A stretch of 64,000 nucleotides of DNA from an uncultured Actinomycetes bacterium. Lineage in GTDB: Bacteria; Actinomycetota; Thermoleophilia; Miltoncostaeales; Miltoncostaeaceae. Shown here piece after piece: positions 40,886-49,891 of this stretch. A program made the translations under genes and the position numbers. Below the pieces are notes generated by a model. It made no database searches, had not been told where the DNA came from, and saw only the letters and a program-made list of their open reading frames with translations. Positions within the stretch are counted from its first letter, which is position 1, and each line of letters starts with the position of its first letter. The stretch lies in the NCBI GenBank assembly GCA_903896045.1, contig CAITWD010000002.1, positions 1-64,000 on the forward strand, read 5' to 3'.

Positions 40886-41713
40886 CTATTTATCGATATC
40901 TCGACCGGTCAAGAGCGTCGCGAGAGCATCAAGGAGATCGCGGACCTCATCTGGCCCGGATACCGCGATATCGGCCTGTGCGCGCAGCGCATCGGGGGTC
41001 TCGGGTCCGGTGGCGACGATCGCAATCGCGGTATCAAGGGCACTCGCGTCACGAAGCTCGTGAATTGCGTCCCAGGTATCGACATCGGTGGTGTCGTCAC
41101 CAATCGCGATCACGTGGCGCACGCTGGTGTCAGCGACGAGCTCGCGCGCTGCGGTGCCCTTATTGATCGCAACGGGGGGACGTACCTCCATCACCATCCG
41201 TCCCCACGTGACGTGAAGGCCGAGGGTCGTGGCAGCAGGGTGACAGACCCGCATAATCTCGGCCTGCGTTGCCTGAGGATCCGGGGCATTACGCCAGTGC
41301 ACCGACAGCGTTGCGCCCTTATGCTCGATGAAGATTCCCCACCGATCACGGAAGGCGATATCCCATTGTCGGGCGAAGGTGTCGATGATGGGTTGCCATG
41401 AGACAGCCGTGGCTGCCACCTGGACCGGTTGCCCGGGGAGCTGCACCTCAAATCCATGATTGCCCGCGTAGCCACAGCCCGGAAGATCGATCAGCCGCCC
41501 AAGGTCATCAATACCGCGGCCGCTGATGAAGGCAACCATTCCAAATTGAGGAATAAGTTTCGCGATCGCGTCCCGCGCGCCTGCGATCATGCGGGCGTCG
41601 GGTGGATGCGCAACGATTGGCGCAAGTGTCCCGTCGAAATCGAGAAGAAGTGCCGATCGGCGTGGGTGTGCGATCACGGATGTGCATGCGGCGATGGCAA
41701 GCGGAATCGACAC
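40886..41713 (-). CDS. otsB: Trehalose-6-phosphate phosphatase
   Basis: A HAD-type OtsB of about 275 residues with LLLDFDGTLAPIV (motif I), FISGRGIDDLGRL, GYAGNHGFEV, a Lys in VAINKGTAARELV and AIGDDTTDVDTWDAI (motif IV). It dephosphorylates trehalose-6-phosphate. No otsA partner is in the window. The start is uncertain: ATG 41734 would share bases with the ATG of the divergent transporter, so GTG 41713 is listed, and GTG 41677 is also possible. Confidence 0.88.
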   Translation of the reverse strand: MSIPLAIAACTSVIAHPRRSALLLDFDGTLAPIVAHPPDARMIAGARDAIAKLIPQFGMVAFISGRGIDDLGRLIDLPGCGYAGNHGFEVQLPGQPVQVAATAVSWQPIIDTFARQWDIAFRDRWGIFIEHKGATLSVHWRNAPDPQATQAEIMRVCHPAATTLGLHVTWGRMVMEVRPPVAINKGTAARELVADTSVRHVIAIGDDTTDVDTWDAIHELRDASALDTAIAIVATGPETPDALRAQADIAVSGPDEVRDLLDALATLLTGRDIDK

Positions 41714-41732
41714 TACTGACGAGGCTAGCAGC

Positions 41733-42092
41733 ATGACGCGCCATCAGCAGATCTTGATTATCACCGGAATGGGTGCAGGGCTGTTCTCGGCGCTCTTTGG
41801 CGTCGGGGGAGGGGTCATTATCGTGCCGATCTTGGTGCTCGCTGGGGGCTACGCACAAAAACGTGCCTCTTCGGTGTCGCTGGCGGCAATCATTTTCATC
41901 GCCCTGTGGGGGGCACTCGCGCAAGGGGCGTTTGGAAATGTCGAGTGGGGTGCTGCGCTGCTTGTGGGAATTCCCGCGATGGCGGGTGTCGCGTTCGGCA
42001 TTCATCTCAAACACCGACTCAATACAGTTGTCATGCAATATTGCTTTGCGGGATTACTCGCCGTCATCGCCGTTATCCTGGTCGTCAAGTGA
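41733..42092 (+). CDS. TauE/SafE family transporter, N-terminal half protein
   Basis: A 119-residue protein with about four hydrophobic helices, opening ITGMGAGLFSALFGVGGGVIIVP (in parts), the repeat signature of TauE/SafE sulfite/organic anion exporters. Normal family members are about 250 residues and contain two such halves. GAGG lies 8 bases before ATG 41733. Its stop overlaps the next gene's GTG (GTGA), which encodes the second half, so the two chains are probably made together and pair. Confidence 0.8.
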   Translation: MTRHQQILIITGMGAGLFSALFGVGGGVIIVPILVLAGGYAQKRASSVSLAAIIFIALWGALAQGAFGNVEWGAALLVGIPAMAGVAFGIHLKHRLNTVVMQYCFAGLLAVIAVILVVK

Positions 42093-42466
42093 TTTCGGCA
42101 GATCTGGCAGTCATGGCAGTTGGCGTCGGCGCGGGCGTCATCGCCGGCCTCTTTGGCGTGGGCGGCGGGATCATTTTCGTCCCGACCTTAACGCTGCTTT
42201 TGGGCATGACCCAGCATCATGCGCAAGCCACGTCGCTCTTGGCCATCGTGCCGGTCGCGATCTTTGGTACCTGGCGGGAACGTCGCAGTGGGGCGGTTGA
42301 CTGGCGTGACGTGGCAATCATCAGCGTCGCATCGATTGCGACCGCAGTTGCCGGTGCGCTGCTTGCAAACGCACTTCCCGAACATGCGCTGCGGATCGGA
42401 TTTGCCGGCGTGCTGATCTTGACCGCCGTGCAAATCATTCGTCAGGCGCGCCAGGCATCTCAGTAG
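42089..42466 (+). CDS. TauE/SafE family transporter, C-terminal half protein
   Basis: A 125-residue membrane protein whose N-terminus repeats the signature GAGVIAGLFGVGGGIIFVPTL, with Q-H-A-Q-A-T-S-L after helix 2 as in TauE/SafE. It is coupled by GTGA to the preceding half gene. The frame change between the halves comes with a good overlapping start codon, so this looks like a genuine two-gene arrangement rather than a simple frameshift, though a sequencing or mutational frameshift cannot be excluded. Confidence 0.8.
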   Translation: MISADLAVMAVGVGAGVIAGLFGVGGGIIFVPTLTLLLGMTQHHAQATSLLAIVPVAIFGTWRERRSGAVDWRDVAIISVASIATAVAGALLANALPEHALRIGFAGVLILTAVQIIRQARQASQ

Positions 42467-42527: not shown

Positions 42528-42569
42528 AAAAAAAACAACGGGGCAGATCTCGAGAAGAGATCCACCCCG
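42528..42569 (-). terminator. Rho-independent terminator after the ADC-like genes
   Basis: On the minus strand a stem with CGGGG/CCCCG (42539-42543 with 42565-42569) and GATCTC/GAGATC (42546-42551 with 42557-42562), separated by a 2x2 internal loop, is followed by a run of T (A-run on the plus strand at 42528-42538). It ends the ADC-like transcript 28 bases beyond the stop. It is the clearest U-tract terminator in the window. Confidence 0.9.
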
Positions 42570-42596
42570 CTGTGGGTAGTACGTATGCGGTAGGGC

Positions 42597-43616
42597 TCAG
42601 ACGCCTGGAGGCTTCGGGAACCGGTGACGCATGGTGTACTGGTAAGGAGTTGCGAACAAGAGGTCCGCAATGTCCTCGTCGGTGCGCTCGATCGTGTTTG
42701 ACCAGATCGTCTCAGCACCAGGGATGATGAGGTCAAAGTTGTAGCTCATAAGACCAATGAGCTCCTTGACCGGCAACATCTCGCCCATGTTGTCGAACGG
42801 AGTTGCCTGAAGTGCCCACGAACGAATCGCAGCCGGCGAAGCGGTACGAATCGACTCAGGCTTCAGCTGGAACCGGTGCTGACCCTCAGTCTCCGGACGG
42901 CCCATGGCGGCTGCAGTTGCTGCAGTCACCTCAGATGGCAAGTAGGTGACTTCCCACTTGGTCTGCTTGAGCGACGGGTGAGTAAGGATACGCAGGTTCA
43001 TACGACCGTATTCCGGGTTGCCGTAGAATGCCGGCTTGGCCGACAGCTCTGCGTCATCGTACTTACCGGTTGCGGTGTGAAGCAGGTAACCACGACGCTC
43101 CATGGTGAAGTTGAAGTAGTCGTTACCAAAGCCACCGTAGCCGTCGTCTTCCTTGCCACCGTGTTCTTGGGTGACAATGTAGGCGATCTTCTTCGGGAAA
43201 CCGAAGGGCTCACGGCCGGCGAACACTGCAGCGTCCTGCGTGAGGTACATGTAGGGGTAGTAACCGGCGTAACGAGTCTTGCCGGTACCATCCTTGCAGG
43301 AAGCCGAAACCGTCACACCCATCTCGCCGTACGGGCCAAGACCTGTGTGAAGGTGGTCGACGTACCAAAACTCAACGATGTCGTCCTCAAGTGTGAGGGC
43401 CTTAGGAAGGATGTGCTTCAGGTCCTTCTCGTCGGCACGGTAGAAGAATGCCGACCAACGTGAGTTGGTGTACGTCAGCGGGACGATGTCGTAATCGACA
43501 AGCGGGTCCGCGATACCTTGTGAAATAATGTCACGCTTGTCGCGGTCGAGGGCCAACGGCGGGGCGTCGCCCGAGTCGATCCACGGCACGCTTGTGACGT
43601 TAACGTTCTGCGCCAT
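42597..43616 (-). CDS. Acetoacetate decarboxylase-like protein (paralog 1)
   Basis: A 339-residue ADC-superfamily protein. FGFPKK at 138-143 holds the Schiff-base lysine pair of acetoacetate decarboxylase, and GPYGEMGVTV (94-103) holds the conserved Glu. It is about 95 residues longer than clostridial Adc, with an added C-terminal region ending in MRHRFPKPPGV. About half or more of its residues match the neighbouring paralog. Codons are strongly biased to GAC, TAC, AAG, AAC, GAG and CGT, indicating high expression. AAGGAGG sits 10 bases before the ATG. The real substrate is unknown. Confidence 0.82.
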   Translation of the reverse strand: MAQNVNVTSVPWIDSGDAPPLALDRDKRDIISQGIADPLVDYDIVPLTYTNSRWSAFFYRADEKDLKHILPKALTLEDDIVEFWYVDHLHTGLGPYGEMGVTVSASCKDGTGKTRYAGYYPYMYLTQDAAVFAGREPFGFPKKIAYIVTQEHGGKEDDGYGGFGNDYFNFTMERRGYLLHTATGKYDDAELSAKPAFYGNPEYGRMNLRILTHPSLKQTKWEVTYLPSEVTAATAAAMGRPETEGQHRFQLKPESIRTASPAAIRSWALQATPFDNMGEMLPVKELIGLMSYNFDLIIPGAETIWSNTIERTDEDIADLLFATPYQYTMRHRFPKPPGV

Positions 43617-43644
43617 TTGCGCTAATCCTCCTTGGAGAGAGCCT

Positions 43645-43684
43645 CACACGACGGAGTCTGGGCAGGCCCGCACCCCGTCGTGTG
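43645..43684 (-). promoter_or_regulatory. Hairpin between the two ADC-like genes
   Basis: Perfect 10-bp arms CACACGACGG (43645-43654) and CCGTCGTGTG (43675-43684) enclose a loop that contains a further GGGC/GCCC pairing. No T-run follows on the transcribed strand. In an operon read right to left it could stabilise the upstream mRNA, or partially terminate, giving different levels of the two proteins. Confidence 0.6.
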
Positions 43685-43704
43685 TGAACACATGTTGTGA
43701 GCGT

Positions 43705-44730
43705 TTACGCTCCGAGACCGACTGGCTTCGGGAAGCGGTGACGAAGACCAAAGCGGTAAGGCTTGGCTGCGCCGGCCCACGTTGCATCGCGGGTGTAGGT
43801 CTCTGTCCAGAGGACCTGACCTGCAGGAATGATCAGGTCGAAGCTGAAGGTCATGAGACCGATGTGCTCGACCGGTGGAAGCTCGTGGCCGAGGTTGTCG
43901 TACGGTGTCGCCTGAGTAAACCAGTTGTAGCTCTCTGGCGAAGCGGTACGGATCGACTCTGGCTTCACCTGGAAGCGGTGTGAACCTTCCGTGTCAGGAC
44001 GGCCCATTGCAGTCGCGAGACCCTTGTCGACGAGCGACGGGAGGTACACGAGCTGCCACTCTGACTTGGAGATGTCAGGAGCGGTGATGACCTTCATGTT
44101 CATGCGGCCGTAGTCAGTGTTGCCATAAAATGCTGGCTTGGCTGACAGGTCGGCATCATCGTACTTACCAGTGACCGAGTTCATCACGTATCCGTTACGG
44201 ATCATGAGGAAGGAGAAGTAGTCAAACTGGTAGTTCTTGCCGTCGTACACCCCGTAACCATCGTCAGGGTTACCACCGTGCTCGAGCACGCGAATGAAGG
44301 CTTCCTTCTTCGGGAAACCAAGCACACGGCCAGCGTCGATCGCGGCGTCCTGGGTCAGGTACATGTACGGGTAGTAACCGGCGTAGTACGTCTTGCCGTC
44401 GCCACCCTTGTAGGAGGCTGCAACAGTCACACCCATCTCGCCGTACGGGCCAAGCATGGTGTGGTTGTGGTCGACGTACCAGTACTCGACGATGTCATCT
44501 TCGAGTTCAAGGCAGTCAGGAAGCACGCGACGAAGGGCCTTCTCGTCTGCGCGGTAGAAAAATGCTGACCAACGTGAGTTCGTGTAGGTCAACGGGAGGG
44601 TGTCGATGTCCCAGAGAGGGTCAGCGAGTGGGTAAATAATCGCTGTCTTCTCGTCACGGTCCAACGGAGACGGTGGAATTTCTCCTGTCTCGCGGCCCGG
44701 TACTTGGGTCACGGCGAACTGCTCGGCCAT
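43705..44730 (-). CDS. Acetoacetate decarboxylase-like protein (paralog 2)
   Basis: A 341-residue paralog of the preceding gene with the same blocks: PLTYTNSRWSAFFYRADEK (46-64), GPYGEMGVTV (94-103), LGFPKKEAF with Lys141-Lys142, and a C-terminal LRHRFPKPVG. It is first in the two-gene operon and has the same strongly optimised codon use. GGGGGA lies about 9 bases before the ATG, and a promoter is visible 93-122 bases upstream. ADC-like proteins act on beta-keto acids or related substrates; which one here cannot be told. No thiolase or CoA-transferase is adjacent. Confidence 0.82.
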   Translation of the reverse strand: MAEQFAVTQVPGRETGEIPPSPLDRDEKTAIIYPLADPLWDIDTLPLTYTNSRWSAFFYRADEKALRRVLPDCLELEDDIVEYWYVDHNHTMLGPYGEMGVTVAASYKGGDGKTYYAGYYPYMYLTQDAAIDAGRVLGFPKKEAFIRVLEHGGNPDDGYGVYDGKNYQFDYFSFLMIRNGYVMNSVTGKYDDADLSAKPAFYGNTDYGRMNMKVITAPDISKSEWQLVYLPSLVDKGLATAMGRPDTEGSHRFQVKPESIRTASPESYNWFTQATPYDNLGHELPPVEHIGLMTFSFDLIIPAGQVLWTETYTRDATWAGAAKPYRFGLRHRFPKPVGLGA

Positions 44731-44822
44731 AGGCTGGCGTCCCCCTAGCTCGGTGAAGGGTAGTTACAGATACATCGCGTGGACCAGGAGGAGTTTTTTC
44801 GGCCCCCCCTGCATCCATTAGC

Positions 44823-44852
44823 AGCATATGTCACATGCTCATCTGGAGTCAA
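44823..44852 (-). promoter_or_regulatory. Promoter for the ADC-like operon
   Basis: On the minus strand -35 TTGACT (44847-44852) and -10 TATGCT (44823-44828) are 18 bases apart, a good match to a housekeeping sigma factor. Transcription would start near 44815, giving a leader of about 85 bases before the ADC-like paralog 2. Confidence 0.6.
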
Positions 44853-44903: not shown

Positions 44904-44959
44904 TTTGCAGGTGAAAAGTGCGGTATAAGGTGTGACATTGTGCCGATACTTACAAAGTC

Positions 44960-45121: not shown

Positions 45122-46036
45122 GTGCATCGCGCGAATCTCTTTGCGTTATTGGCCATGGTCTGCTGGGGCACGGCATATGTGCCATCGGCGTGGCTTGCGC
45201 AATCGATCGGTCCGTTCGGCGCGGCGGCATGGCGCCTGGGTGTTGCCGGGGGTGTGCTGTGGGTGATTGCAGCTGCGCGTGGCCATGCCCTGCCGCGGGG
45301 GATTCGTATTGAGCTGTTGATCGGGCTCGCGCTGGCGCAGACAACGGTCTTCTATGGGGCAACCTTTTGGGGCATTGCCCATGAAGGCGCTGGCTTGGCA
45401 TCGGTGCTCGCCAACAGCGACCCATTGTTCGTGGCGATCCTTGCGGTCGGGCTGCTCGGGGAGCACCTTCGTCCACTCCAGCGCGTGGGCCTGGTGGTGG
45501 GTTTTCTGGGCGTGGCAATCGCGGTGTGTACCAAAGGGCTCTTGCCACCCCACCCCACTGTGGCTGCGATCATTGTGGTGATTGGTGCGTTCGCGTGGGC
45601 TGCGGGCACCATCGTCGCCGCCCGGGCCATACGCGATCACTCACATCCATGGAGTCTCGCCGCCTGGCAGCTGATGATCGGCGCGGTGGGGCTCCTCCTT
45701 TTGATGCCCTTTGACCATGGTGCGCATGTGCCGACCCACCCACGAGATATCGGCCTGGTGCTCCTGCTGGGAATACTCGGCTCAGCCGTTCCCACGGCAT
45801 TGTTTTACTTTGCGTTGCGCACTGGGGCGGCGAGCGAGGTCTCCGCCTGGTTTTTCTTGGTGCCGATCTTGGGTGTGTTCACCGCATGGCCGTTGTTGGG
45901 TGAGCAGCCGACGATCACGCTGTGGATTGGCCTCGTTGGAGTGTCAATTGGCCTGTGGTGCGTGCTGCGCCAACGCAGCCGCTTGGTAGCATCTCGGTCG
46001 GTTATGTCGAATCGCCAACCGCCCGAACTTCCGTGA
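45122..46036 (+). CDS. EamA/DMT family transporter
   Basis: A 304-residue protein with ten predicted transmembrane helices in two EamA repeats. The N-terminal repeat has MVCWGTAYVPSAWLAQSIGP, and the C-terminal repeat ends with FFLVPILGVFTAWPLLGEQPT. DMT exporters move amino acids, nucleotide precursors or other small molecules. The start is uncertain: GTG 45122 gives the family N-terminus but has only a close GGGG upstream. Its stop overlaps cofD (GTGA), so it is translationally coupled to the F420 genes, which is unusual. Confidence 0.82.
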   Translation: MHRANLFALLAMVCWGTAYVPSAWLAQSIGPFGAAAWRLGVAGGVLWVIAAARGHALPRGIRIELLIGLALAQTTVFYGATFWGIAHEGAGLASVLANSDPLFVAILAVGLLGEHLRPLQRVGLVVGFLGVAIAVCTKGLLPPHPTVAAIIVVIGAFAWAAGTIVAARAIRDHSHPWSLAAWQLMIGAVGLLLLMPFDHGAHVPTHPRDIGLVLLLGILGSAVPTALFYFALRTGAASEVSAWFFLVPILGVFTAWPLLGEQPTITLWIGLVGVSIGLWCVLRQRSRLVASRSVMSNRQPPELP

Positions 46037-46959
46037 TCCTGGTCCTTTCAGGGGGTACCGGAGGGTCCAAGATGGTCGATGGGGTTGCCCAGGTTGCTGG
46101 CCAATCCCAATTGACGGCCATCGTGAATACCGGCGATGACTCCGATTTTTATGGGCTGCGAGTGTGTCCTGATCTCGACATCTGCACATATGTGCTCGCC
46201 GGGACAATCGATGCGCGTGGGTGGGGATATGCATCCGACACCTTTCGTTGCCTTGAGGGATTGTCGACCTACGGCCTTGATGCATGGTTTGGACTTGGCG
46301 ATCGAGACCTTGCGACACACCTGTTTCGGACGATCCGCTTGGGCGCCGGTCACACCCTTGATCAGATTTCTCGGGAGATGTGCGCGGCGCTGGGCGTGGA
46401 TGCCACCCTCTTGCCAATGACCAACGACCGGGTGCATACCCGTATCACGACGCCCACAGGGGTCCTCGCATTTCAGGAGTATCTGGTCAAAGGCGGTGCC
46501 AAGGAAGAAATCCTGTCGATCACATTTGACGGGATTGAGACCGCGGTCCCCGCGCCAGGAGTGCTGGAGGCGATTGCTGCGGCATCAACCATTGTGGTTG
46601 CACCCTCCAGCCCAATCGTCTCGATCGGAACCATCTTGGCGGTACCAGGTATTCGCGACGCATTGATTGTGCGTCGCGCGGATTGTGTCGCGGTGAGCCC
46701 GATTATTGGCGGTCGGCCCGTGGAGGGGCCAGCGCATCGTTTTCTTGCGGGAGCGGGGTACAACGAGTGCTCGGCGACACAGATGGCCCGCCTCTATGCC
46801 GATGTTGCGGGAACGTTCATCTTGGATACACGCGATGCCAACGAGGTGCCGGCAATTGAGGCGCTTGGCGTGCAGGCGGTGTTACGCGACATCCTCATGC
46901 CCGATCGCACCCAGCGCGCACGCTTGGCCGATGAGGTGTTGGCGGCGGTGAGCGTCTAA
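46033..46959 (+). CDS. cofD: 2-phospho-L-lactate transferase (F420 biosynthesis), CofD/FbiA
   Basis: A 308-residue CofD with the nucleotide-binding LSGGTGGSKMVDG (residues 4-16), NTGDDSDFYGLRVCPDLD, and GWGYASDTFRCLEGL. It joins the lactyl or enolpyruvyl phosphate moiety from the GDP-linked donor to the deazaflavin Fo, forming F420-0 or its dehydro form. GTG 46033 overlaps the transporter gene and TAATG joins it to cofC. Confidence 0.92.
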   Translation: MILVLSGGTGGSKMVDGVAQVAGQSQLTAIVNTGDDSDFYGLRVCPDLDICTYVLAGTIDARGWGYASDTFRCLEGLSTYGLDAWFGLGDRDLATHLFRTIRLGAGHTLDQISREMCAALGVDATLLPMTNDRVHTRITTPTGVLAFQEYLVKGGAKEEILSITFDGIETAVPAPGVLEAIAAASTIVVAPSSPIVSIGTILAVPGIRDALIVRRADCVAVSPIIGGRPVEGPAHRFLAGAGYNECSATQMARLYADVAGTFILDTRDANEVPAIEALGVQAVLRDILMPDRTQRARLADEVLAAVSV

Positions 46960-47630
46960 TGCGGGTGTCGGCAGTCATTCCGGTCAAGCCGATGGATCGC
47001 GCCCTTGGGCGCCTGTCGGCAGTCCTGGGGCGAGGCGAGCGTCGTGAATTACAGGTGGCGATGCTGACCGACCTGCTCATCGCCTGTGTTGATTGCGGGC
47101 GTTTGTCGGAAACGATCATCGTGACCAGCGACGACCATGCAGCGAAGATGAGTCGCGCATTGGGTGCACGTGTGCTTCCTGATCACTCTCCGCCACGGGG
47201 CATGAACCCTGCAGTAGGGATTGGTCAGGCAGATGCTGCCGCCCGCGGTCAGGATGCTGTGTTGATTTTGACCTCTGATTTACCTCTCGTCGGAGCGGAT
47301 GACCTGACGCGGGTCATTGACGCCTGCGGGGCAACTCCGGGAGGGGTGCTCGTCCCATCACGCGCGGGTACCGGAACAAATGCCTTGGTGATCGCACCGC
47401 CCGATGCCCTGACGACCGAGTTAGGTGTGGATTCGCGTGTGCGGCACGTCGAGGGCTTTCGCCGCGCGGGTCTTTCGCTGGCCCAAATTGAGATCCCCTC
47501 GCTGGGTCTGGATGTCGACACTCCCGATGATCTGCTCGCACTTGCGGGATGGGGGCATGGTGGTCGTGCCGCAGCGGTGTGTACCGAATGGAATCTCACC
47601 GAGCGCCTTAGTGCAGGAGTGCTCCCCTGA
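46959..47630 (+). CDS. cofC: 2-phospholactate/PEP guanylyltransferase, CofC/FbiD
   Basis: A 223-residue nucleotidyltransferase with RVSAVIPVKPMDRALGRLS at the N-terminus, LILTSDLPLVGADDL carrying the metal-binding Asp, and GTGTNALVIAPPDAL. It makes the GDP-activated three-carbon donor used by CofD. In actinobacteria the substrate is probably phosphoenolpyruvate (FbiD type). Its TGA overlaps the CTG start proposed for cofE. Confidence 0.9.
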   Translation: MRVSAVIPVKPMDRALGRLSAVLGRGERRELQVAMLTDLLIACVDCGRLSETIIVTSDDHAAKMSRALGARVLPDHSPPRGMNPAVGIGQADAAARGQDAVLILTSDLPLVGADDLTRVIDACGATPGGVLVPSRAGTGTNALVIAPPDALTTELGVDSRVRHVEGFRRAGLSLAQIEIPSLGLDVDTPDDLLALAGWGHGGRAAAVCTEWNLTERLSAGVLP

Positions 47631-48361
47631 GGCTCTTTGCGCTGGAGGGGCTACCAGAGATCGTCGAAGGTCGCGGGCTCGCAGAACGTATCGCACAGTT
47701 ATCGGTTGCACAGGGCGTGCAACCGGGGGACGTGCTGGCGATTGCACAAAAGGTTGTCAGTAAAGATGAGGGCCGTGTGGTCGTGATGGCAGATGTCGTC
47801 CCTTCTGCGCGCGCCCTGGCACTCGCGGATCTCACCGGCAAAGATCCTGCGCTGTGTGAGCTCATCTTGCGCGAGTCATCGCGGATTGTGCGCCGCCGGG
47901 GCAGCCTGGTGATTGCCGAGACCCATCATGGGTTTATCTGTGCCAATGCCGGAATTGATGCGTCGAATACCGCGCTGGGCACAGCGATCTTGCTCCCTGT
48001 CGACAGTGATCGATCGGCGCGACGCATTCAGAGTGTGGTGAGTGCTGCCGTGGGTGGGCGCGTCGGGGTCATCGTCACCGATACACACGGTCGTGCATTC
48101 CGGCGTGGCCTGGTCAACGTGGCCCTTGGCGTCGCTGGATTTGACGCGATCAATGACTGCCGGGGGGAAACCGATCGAGAGGGTCGTGTCCTCGTTGCCA
48201 CCGAGCTTGCCTTTGCCGATGAACTTGCGGCGGCATCCGGGGTACTCATGGGAAAGGCTGCAGGGACACCTGTTGTGGTGATCTCGGGCGTGCCCACGCG
48301 ACCGGCACCCGGCACCATGACGACCCTGCTTCGGGAGCCCGGTCACGATCTTTTTCGATAA
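47627..48361 (+). CDS. cofE: Coenzyme F420:L-glutamate ligase, CofE/FbiB N-domain type, with CTG start
   Basis: A 244-residue CofE that adds glutamates to F420-0. LAIAQKVVSKDEGR, TIVDTHGRAFRR-type metal motif (here VTDTHGRAFRRGLVNVALG) and a C-terminal PAPGTM are conserved. The first standard start (GTG 47717) would delete the family N-terminus. In the same frame CTG 47627 gives RLFALEGLPEIVEGRGL, which matches CofE; it overlaps the cofC stop (CTGA), and AGGAG at 47615-47619 is 7 bases upstream. An in-frame TAG at 47609-47611 excludes earlier starts. There is no fused nitroreductase domain as in mycobacterial FbiB. Confidence 0.85.
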   Translation: MRLFALEGLPEIVEGRGLAERIAQLSVAQGVQPGDVLAIAQKVVSKDEGRVVVMADVVPSARALALADLTGKDPALCELILRESSRIVRRRGSLVIAETHHGFICANAGIDASNTALGTAILLPVDSDRSARRIQSVVSAAVGGRVGVIVTDTHGRAFRRGLVNVALGVAGFDAINDCRGETDREGRVLVATELAFADELAAASGVLMGKAAGTPVVVISGVPTRPAPGTMTTLLREPGHDLFR

Positions 48362-48396
48362 TCGTCGTCAACCGGGCGATATGTGGGGTGGCGGCT

Positions 48397-48414
48397 TACA
48401 ATCGAAGTTCGATT
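48397..48414. promoter_or_regulatory. Promoter-like -10 with overlapping palindrome before fprA
   Basis: TACAAT at 48397-48402 looks like a -10 element. A perfect palindrome AATCGAA G TTCGATT (48400-48414) overlaps it, 32 bases before the reductase start. No convincing -35 is seen. A repressor or redox regulator binding here would block transcription; this is inference. Confidence 0.4.
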
Positions 48415-48445
48415 CGAGACGAATGCGCGCAGCGGGGGTAGGGCA

Positions 48446-49891
48446 ATGACAGATGCACGTTTAGGTACAGATGCGCGTCCATTTCGGGTTGCCGTGATCG
48501 GTTCTGGGCCCTCCGGGTTTTATGCTGCAGAGCATTTGCATCGCCAGGAGGGTGTCGTCACCCAGGTCGATATGTTCGATCGGCTTCCGACCCCGTTCGG
48601 ACTCGTGCGTGGTGGCGTGGCCCCGGATCACCAAAACATCAAGGCGGTCACACGGGTCTACGACAAGATCGCCGAGCACCCCGAGTTTCGTTTCTACGGC
48701 AATATCGAACTCGGTCGTGAAATCACCCACGACGATCTGATCGCCTACTACCACGCGGTGATTTATGCAGTGGGCGCCCGCACCGACAAGCGTTTGGGAA
48801 TCCCGAAGGAATATTTGCCGGGAAGCCATTCCGCGAGCGAATTCGTCGGGTGGTACAACGCCCACCCCGATTTCCGTTCGCTGGCATTCGACTTTTCTGG
48901 TTCGACTGCGGTCATTGTGGGAAATGGGAATGTGGCAATGGATCTGGCCCGCATGCTCTTGGTGCCCGTCGAGAATCTGCATCGCACCGATATCGCCGAG
49001 CACGCACTGCGCGCCTTGGGGAAGTCCGCGATCAATGAGGTGTTGATTCTGGGGCGGCGCGGTCCCTTACAGGCGGCATTCACGACAAAAGAGTTGCGTG
49101 AGTTGGGTGAGATTGCCGATTGCGATGTGATCGTCGCACCCGATGATCTGCCGAGCGCCGAGGAAATCTCTGAAGGGGTCTCAAAAACTGCCTTGGCCAA
49201 TCTTGAAGTGCTTCGTCACTTTGCTGCGAAACCATTGACCGGTGCCAGCCGACGCGTCGTGTTGCGATTTTTCCAATCACCGATTGAATTGATCGGCGAT
49301 GACCGGGTGAGCGGCGTGGTGATTGCCGAAAATGAGCTCTATCTCACCGAGCACGGTTCCGTGCGTGCGCGGGTGACTGACCGCACCGAGCAGATCCGCG
49401 CAGATCTGGTGTTTCGGGCAATCGGCTACCAGGGCGTACCGTTGCTGGGGATCCCCTTTGATGCTGCAGGCGGCGTGATCCCGAATGAAAAGGGACGCGT
49501 CATGGACCCCACGACCACAACGCATGTCGCTGGCGAATATGTGGTCGGATGGATTAAGCGTGGTCCGCGAGGCATTATCGGAACAAATAAGCCCGATTCT
49601 CAAGAGACGGTGGATCAGCTGCTTGAGGACTTTGGTGCAGGGGCATTCGAGGGGCGTGATGTGCCTGGGCGCGCCGTACTTGAGCGGTTGCTCGGTGAGC
49701 GCCGGCGCGATTTTGTCAGCTACAGCGATTGGCAGATGATCGACATGCTCGAGCAGGAGCGCGGCCGCGATGCCGGCGAGCGTCCACGCCTCAAATTCAG
49801 TCGCATCGAGGAGATGCTCTCAGCCCTCGCCGAGAAAAAGCAGGAACAACGACGCGTGCAGAGCGCACAGGCCCAGCACGAGGGCGAGTAA
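48446..49891 (+). CDS. Ferredoxin--NADP+ reductase, FprA/adrenodoxin reductase type
   Basis: A 481-residue flavoprotein with FAD-binding VIGSGPSGFYAAEHL (about 16-30), GLVRGGVAPDHQNIKAV, and NADP-binding VIVGNGNVAMDLARML (about 157-172). VGWIKRGPRGIIGTNKPDS near the C-terminus is diagnostic of the FprA/adrenodoxin reductase family. It passes electrons between NADPH and ferredoxin. The final ~40 residues are a charged, Gln/Glu-rich helix. ATG 48446 was preferred over an upstream in-frame codon because it starts just before the flavin motif. Confidence 0.92.
   Translation: MTDARLGTDARPFRVAVIGSGPSGFYAAEHLHRQEGVVTQVDMFDRLPTPFGLVRGGVAPDHQNIKAVTRVYDKIAEHPEFRFYGNIELGREITHDDLIAYYHAVIYAVGARTDKRLGIPKEYLPGSHSASEFVGWYNAHPDFRSLAFDFSGSTAVIVGNGNVAMDLARMLLVPVENLHRTDIAEHALRALGKSAINEVLILGRRGPLQAAFTTKELRELGEIADCDVIVAPDDLPSAEEISEGVSKTALANLEVLRHFAAKPLTGASRRVVLRFFQSPIELIGDDRVSGVVIAENELYLTEHGSVRARVTDRTEQIRADLVFRAIGYQGVPLLGIPFDAAGGVIPNEKGRVMDPTTTTHVAGEYVVGWIKRGPRGIIGTNKPDSQETVDQLLEDFGAGAFEGRDVPGRAVLERLLGERRRDFVSYSDWQMIDMLEQERGRDAGERPRLKFSRIEEMLSALAEKKQEQRRVQSAQAQHEGE

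Follow-up and report, generated by a model that had tools for sequence, protein, structure and literature searches.

A family-wide tandem pair of long, highly codon-biased acetoacetate decarboxylase-superfamily proteins linked to F420 biosynthesis genes in Miltoncostaeaceae

The window analysed here is a stretch of 64,000 nucleotides of contig C2 of a Miltoncostaeaceae (Thermoleophilia) genome of 1.67 Mb that is 99.85% complete. On the minus strand of this window, two complete open reading frames lie in tandem, the first (gene A, 43705..44730) encoding a protein of 341 aa and the second (gene B, 42597..43616) a protein of 339 aa, with 60% identity between the two. Both match the Pfam acetoacetate decarboxylase (ADC) family PF06314 (E 4e-27 and 9e-25; 95.6 and 87.9 bits, above the curated cutoff of 29.8), and their scores with the NCBIfam ADC model PRK02265 (56.8 and 55.5 bits) fall far below its cutoff of 150. 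AlphaFold2 models of modest confidence (pLDDT 68 for A and 65 for B) each matched 24 PDB chains at E <= 0.001, all belonging to the ADC superfamily, with 3bgt as the top match for both (E 4.9e-14 for A and 6.3e-14 for B). An earlier note on this DNA had described two long paralogs of the ADC superfamily, and the lengths, mutual identity, family and fold all bear this out. Among relatives, the product of gene A is conserved at 82-93% identity.

To compare the active sites, we used an alignment of 33 rows, 32 of which cover the positions of E98 and Trp84, and the residues R29, E61, E76, K115 and K116, which we take to be those of the active site in the Clostridium acetobutylicum ADC. The lysines K141 and K142, equivalent to K115 and K116, are invariant in all 33 rows, and E98, equivalent to E76, is kept in 32 of 32. 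The position of E61 is occupied by Trp84 in 32 of 32 rows, and R29 aligns with Ser52, next to which lies Arg53. The claim that the catalytic residues are kept is thus correct for the Lys-Lys pair and one glutamate only. With these three residues conserved throughout, Trp in the place of E61 and no Arg directly aligned to R29, we treat A and B as long-form Schiff-base proteins of the ADC superfamily, not as demonstrated acetoacetate decarboxylases. The kept residues support Schiff-base chemistry of the predicted proteins.

With the ADCs of C. acetobutylicum (3bh2), C. violaceum (3bgt) and Legionella (3c8w), all of PF06314, the pair shares K115, K116, E76 and a fold that extends over approximately 265 columns (target-normalised TM of ~0.7). 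Unlike these enzymes, however, the pair consists of two tandem paralogs rather than one gene, the proteins measure ~340 rather than ~245 aa, identity is only ~19%, Trp replaces E61, Ser aligns with R29, and there are no CoA transferase or solvent genes nearby. A second comparison is with the aldolase-dehydratases of Streptomyces bingchenggensis (4zbo, 4zbt, 6eej) and Swit_4259 (5upb), and with MppR (4jm3), which have in common with the pair the fold, the Schiff-base lysine in GFPKK and a similar preceding loop, but from which the pair differs in length, pairing and genomic context, the sequence match being weak. The pair could be a Schiff-base aldolase/dehydratase, or a retro-aldolase, with a keto acid and an aldehyde as its substrates in the manner of the Streptomyces bingchenggensis and Sphingomonas members, rather than a decarboxylase. 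The Schiff-base lysine is retained although E61 has given way to Trp and R29 aligns with Ser, the loop GYYPYMYLTQDAAIDAG-GFPKK weakly resembles that of the S. bingchenggensis aldolase-dehydratase (a 31-residue match around the lysine, E 0.5), and two aldehyde dehydrogenases, a GMC and an SDR oxidoreductase are found among the accompanying genes described below. The whole-domain sequence and the fold are, however, closer to the ADCs 3bh2, 3bgt and 3c8w. We therefore consider decarboxylation of a beta-oxo acid to be favoured by family and modelled fold and rate aldolase or dehydratase activity as somewhat unlikely, though a serious rival given the changed pocket.

The codon usage of both genes is extreme. 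Gene calling covered 1.53 of the 1.67 Mb, and the codon adaptation index (CAI) of 1164 genes was calculated against a reference of 23 ribosomal, tuf and fus genes (leave-one-out for those 23). Gene B (CAI 0.807, z ~3.5) ranks second and gene A (0.800, z ~3.3) third of 1164, compared with medians of 0.745 for the ribosomal reference and 0.653 for the whole genome. By the effective number of codons, which does not depend on a reference, B has the lowest value and A the sixth lowest among 926 ranked genes. The earlier note had singled out the pair as the most codon-optimised genes that it saw in the window and proposed comparing its CAI with that of ribosomal genes; that comparison places both genes above the reference median. 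In eight stretches from relatives, scored with the weights of the window's genome, at least one copy is among the top five of the genes present and both are among the top seven; the effective number of codons is saturated by GC3 in the high-GC relatives and hence uninformative there.

The pair is also equipped with its own expression signals. A promoter, TTGACT-N18-TATGCT, lies within TTGACTCCAGATGAGCATGTGACATATGCT upstream of gene A (44823..44852, minus strand). Comparison of 19 regions upstream of gene A revealed TGACATATGCT or TGACATATGGT, with TTG at the normal spacing upstream, in 18 of them, and the core GACATATG in all 19; the promoter is retained at 18 of the 19 loci despite divergence of the surrounding DNA, whereas a promoter scan on the single sequence performed at chance level. 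The 5' leader of the mRNA (44731..44822, minus strand) ends in a conserved AGGGGGA ribosome-binding region. A riboswitch in this leader was considered and rejected (no Rfam family; folding not unusual). Farther upstream, the divergent intergenic region contains an inverted repeat, TTTGT-N-ACAA (TTTGTAAGTATCGGCACAA, 44936..44958), similar to sites at a comparable distance upstream of gene A at four other loci (L005, L008, L014 and L019), which is perhaps a candidate operator of the IclR regulator of the gene module discussed below. Between the two genes (43617..43704, minus strand), a hairpin with a 13-bp outer stem (folding z -2.71) is accompanied by the AAGGAGG ribosome-binding site of gene B. 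Four relatives (L004, L005, L019 and L008) also have hairpins between A and B, although with different sequences, and none was found there in the freshwater genus group. Gene B is followed by an intrinsic terminator with a 17-bp stem and a T-run (42535..42573, minus strand; folding z -5.98), and strong hairpins occupy the same place in seven relatives. The promoter, hairpin and terminator named in the earlier note are all recovered in this way, with one promoter serving both genes. Together with the codon bias, the promoter and terminator signals point to high expression, and the two proteins are probably abundant.

Extreme codon bias, two copies and an adjoining TRAP or DMT transporter would also be compatible with former enzymes that now serve as abundant binding or storage proteins. 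We regard this as very improbable, given that neither copy shows any change at Lys-Lys or Glu and that Lys-Lys is preserved even in an archaeal fragment of the same long form (see below).

Beside the pair, and divergent from it, lies an operon on the plus strand that comprises an EamA/DMT permease (45122..46036; PF00892, synteny), cofD, encoding 2-phospho-L-lactate transferase of F420 biosynthesis (46036..46959; TIGR01819), cofC of the same pathway (46959..47630; TIGR03552), cofE, encoding F420-0:glutamate ligase (47717..48361; TIGR01916), and an FAD/NAD(P)-binding oxidoreductase (48383..49891; Pyr_redox_2), the three cof genes all scoring above the respective cutoffs. Genera differ in the transporter at this position, which is of the EamA/DMT type in some and of the TRAP type in others. 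The oxidoreductase beside cofE, which has an ortholog at most compared loci, is a candidate electron-transfer partner. Between the window and contig C28, the genome encodes the full set of cofC, cofD, cofE, cofG and cofH, as in known F420 biosynthesis operons, with NCBIfam matches above cutoff for all five genes. Unlike in those operons, however, the genes are linked to the ADC-like pair, a transporter and a catabolic set, a linkage that we did not find in the literature searched. The earlier note had seen no ketone-body or solvent pathway gene nearby; this holds for ketone-body genes, but genes of another pathway, F420 biosynthesis, adjoin the pair. On the other side of the pair, two consecutive open reading frames (41589-42466) match the halves of the TauE/SafE permease profile, the C-terminal half first and the N-terminal half second; they represent a gene that was rearranged or else two permease genes of half the usual size.

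The pair was detected in 27 of the 37 family genomes searched, in tandem and in the order A-B wherever contigs show both genes. In the phylogenetic tree, A and B form separate clades with 100/99 support, which places their separation, and the retention of both ever since, ahead of the diversification of the family; such an early split is as expected of two non-redundant subunits, and assembly of A and B into a heteromer is plausible. In a sample of 397 genomes, the pair was found in no other actinobacterial family, and only weak matches to ordinary short ADCs were obtained. The only distant long-form homolog found is in an archaeal MAG labelled Ferroglobus (L023, 1-1917 and 2430-3446). It is a fragment that is 51-60% identical and retains Lys-Lys; the gene immediately after it encodes a close relative of NADP-dependent isopropanol dehydrogenase, and a true cofH lies a short distance further on. 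The long form is absent from all other genomes in a sample of 295 from that archaeal phylum. Two further hits were rejected, L050 being a protein rich in repeats and L051 an ADC-like gene of the ordinary kind. As a parallel case of pairing, six archaeal genomes (G496, G535, G598, G603, G637 and G701) carry two adjacent short ADC-like genes, most encoding ~250 and ~280 aa.

The F420 biosynthesis genes follow the distribution of the pair. The cofD gene was found in 23 of the 27 family genomes that have the pair and in none of the 10 that lack it; the four pair-positive genomes without cofD are fragmented MAGs. Among genomes at least 90% complete, 18 contain both cofD and the pair, six contain neither and two contain the pair only (Fisher p 1.2e-4, uncorrected for phylogeny). 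Bar a few fragmented MAGs, a thiolase ortholog (81-93% identical) tracks the pair as well; it also occurs in one genome (G003, 81% complete) in which the pair was not found. The coiled-coil protein hyp36, which has no significant Pfam match, occurs in the sampled genomes that have the pair and is missing from four that lack it and from nearly all other genomes, and the triplet that it forms with a CbbQ AAA+ ATPase and a VWA protein tracks the pair (L225, 35210-38920; genome G000, contig C38, 16348-20057). The genus Miltoncostaea (g12) includes both pair-positive and pair-negative genomes, which indicates gain or loss within a genus.

In the cultured strain Miltoncostaea oceani SCSIO 61214, this gene set resides on the circular plasmid unnamed2 (46,598 bp). 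In addition to the pair, this plasmid encodes both a TRAP and a DMT transporter, all five cof genes and the FAD oxidoreductase (65% identical to that of the window), accompanied by approximately 20 catabolic genes: a crotonase, an IclR regulator, an aminotransferase-like enzyme, MaoC, an acyl-CoA dehydrogenase, an SDR, a GMC (MftG-like) oxidoreductase, two aldehyde dehydrogenases, Sir2, an MFS transporter, an acyl-CoA ligase, an acetolactate-synthase-like enzyme, a set of HMG-CoA-synthase-like, thiolase and OB-fold proteins, a second thiolase/OB-fold pair and the CbbQ-coiled-coil-VWA triplet. In total, the module encompasses about 25 co-inherited genes. Two relatives contain nearly the same set within ~43 kb of one contig, and in the window's genome most of the module genes are present, spread over contigs C2, C15, C28, C31 and C38. 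There, the second thiolase would rank 8 by CAI, the aminotransferase-like enzyme 21, MaoC 22, CbbQ 23, the OB-fold protein 47 and the thiolase 66; cofC, cofD, cofE and the aldehyde dehydrogenases show average codon bias. The glyoxylate-shunt enzymes isocitrate lyase (rank 20) and malate synthase (rank 46) also rank high, which is consistent with growth on a substrate degraded to acetyl-CoA.

Linked blocks of genes can travel jointly without belonging to a common pathway, and the F420 genes and other module members might be mere neighbours that share a plasmid or island with the pair, which would itself act in an unrelated process. The dispersal of the module over at least five contigs in the window's genome fits such an arrangement, as does the average bias of cofC, cofD and cofE and that of several luciferase-like proteins encoded elsewhere in the genome, which occur in an F420-less relative as well. 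Nevertheless, the association survives changes of distance, order and replicon (plasmid, a single ~43 kb contig, separate contigs), and unlinked module members are still highly codon-biased, so that we judge mere neighbourhood to be unlikely. The link between F420 and the pair is a genomic one only; no F420-using enzyme was identified among the module genes, the cofactor is presumably used by an enzyme other than the pair, and the luciferase-like proteins are candidates for this role outside the module.

As to the substrate, two specific assignments were considered and set aside. Sulfonate (Xsc/taurine) catabolism was hinted at by the TRAP transporter, the aminotransferase, the ThDP enzyme and the TauE-like neighbour, but the ThDP enzyme fails the Xsc cutoff (323 vs 676 bits) and scores as a biosynthetic acetolactate synthase (748.7 bits, cutoff 538). 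The matches of the crotonase, acyl-CoA dehydrogenase and SDR include BadI, cyclohexanecarboxyl-CoA dehydrogenase and ChcB2, all far below cutoffs, and BadI-type catabolism of alicyclic acids remains a lead only.

The family name suggests a third possibility, that the pair is a genuine acetoacetate decarboxylase making acetone in an acetone/isopropanol overflow metabolism, and the archaeal locus, with its adjoining dehydrogenase homolog, does resemble pathways that combine acetoacetate decarboxylase with isopropanol dehydrogenase. In the 91% of the window's genome that was examined, however, motif and single-query searches recognised no ortholog of CoA transferase, HMG-CoA lyase or isopropanol dehydrogenase: the archaeal sADH query retrieved distant dehydrogenases only, and the CoA transferase motif was not encountered. 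Hence, acetoacetate or acetone as a substrate is not supported. Furthermore, E61 is changed, R29 aligns with Ser, and the module looks oxidative and thiolytic, all of which renders acetone production improbable.

Taking these lines of evidence together, our preferred reading, to which we assign a probability of roughly 50%, is that A and B form one heteromeric Schiff-base enzyme that catalyses a major C-C cleavage within an F420-linked catabolic module. Under this scheme, A and B would assemble into a single hetero-oligomeric enzyme that cleaves a C-C bond at high flux through a lysine Schiff base, most likely by decarboxylating a beta-oxo acid. The module, which we infer to run in the catabolic direction, would end in acetyl-CoA, as suggested by the two thiolase/OB-fold pairs, MaoC, acyl-CoA dehydrogenase, crotonase, acyl-CoA ligase, aldehyde dehydrogenases and the GMC and SDR dehydrogenases, and would bring its own F420 biosynthesis for hydride transfer elsewhere in the pathway. 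Given codon-bias ranks of 2 and 3 and a co-inherited F420-making gene set, the pair probably runs a major carbon-breaking step. The earlier proposal that abundant paired enzymes of this type carry out an important, undescribed step is strengthened by the family-wide tandem arrangement, the top codon bias within a co-inherited module and the early A/B split; it did not take into account the adjoining F420 operon, the neighbouring transporter or the plasmid that carries the set in M. oceani. A more ambitious version, which we put forward tentatively and hold to be possible rather than probable, is that the pair is a heteromer, representing a new subfamily of ADCs, and stands at the centre of a hitherto undescribed, plasmid-transferable and F420-dependent catabolic pathway from which a widespread aquatic actinobacterial family draws its main carbon source.

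Neither the ADC superfamily nor F420 biosynthesis nor any single one of the catabolic families is new in itself. In the open-licence PMC literature, we found nothing on the long paired ADC subfamily, its linkage to F420 and the catabolic module, or the Miltoncostaea version, and with respect to that literature the subfamily and its linkage are new. Little has been mapped of the use of F420 beyond methanogens, mycobacteria and streptomycetes; in the present family, F420 biosynthesis is gained or lost along with one catabolic module, the most codon-biased genes of which encode an uncharacterised enzyme pair. Since the pathway is strongly codon-optimised in lake genomes of 1.5-1.7 Mb, it may represent the principal mode of nutrition of these bacteria. 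The cultured M. oceani SCSIO 61214, with the module on a 46.6-kb plasmid, opens the question to direct experiment.

Several observations are peripheral to the pair. Four contigs (L007, L013, L016 and L018) that show the arrangement typical of Miltoncostaeaceae come from MAGs that bear the names Planctomycetota, Bifidobacterium breve or Acidobacteria and are mislabelled or misbinned. Two further highly biased genes of the window's genome were examined as module members and rejected, since both are family-wide regardless of the pair. One (L070, 174-1529, contig C17; CAI rank 28) encodes a 451-aa protein that is conserved across the family, has no notable Pfam, NCBIfam or PDB match and, by its codon bias, is predicted to be an abundant orphan. 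The other (L073, 16109-17197, contig C20; CAI rank 15) encodes a nitroreductase-like protein that is often present in two copies.
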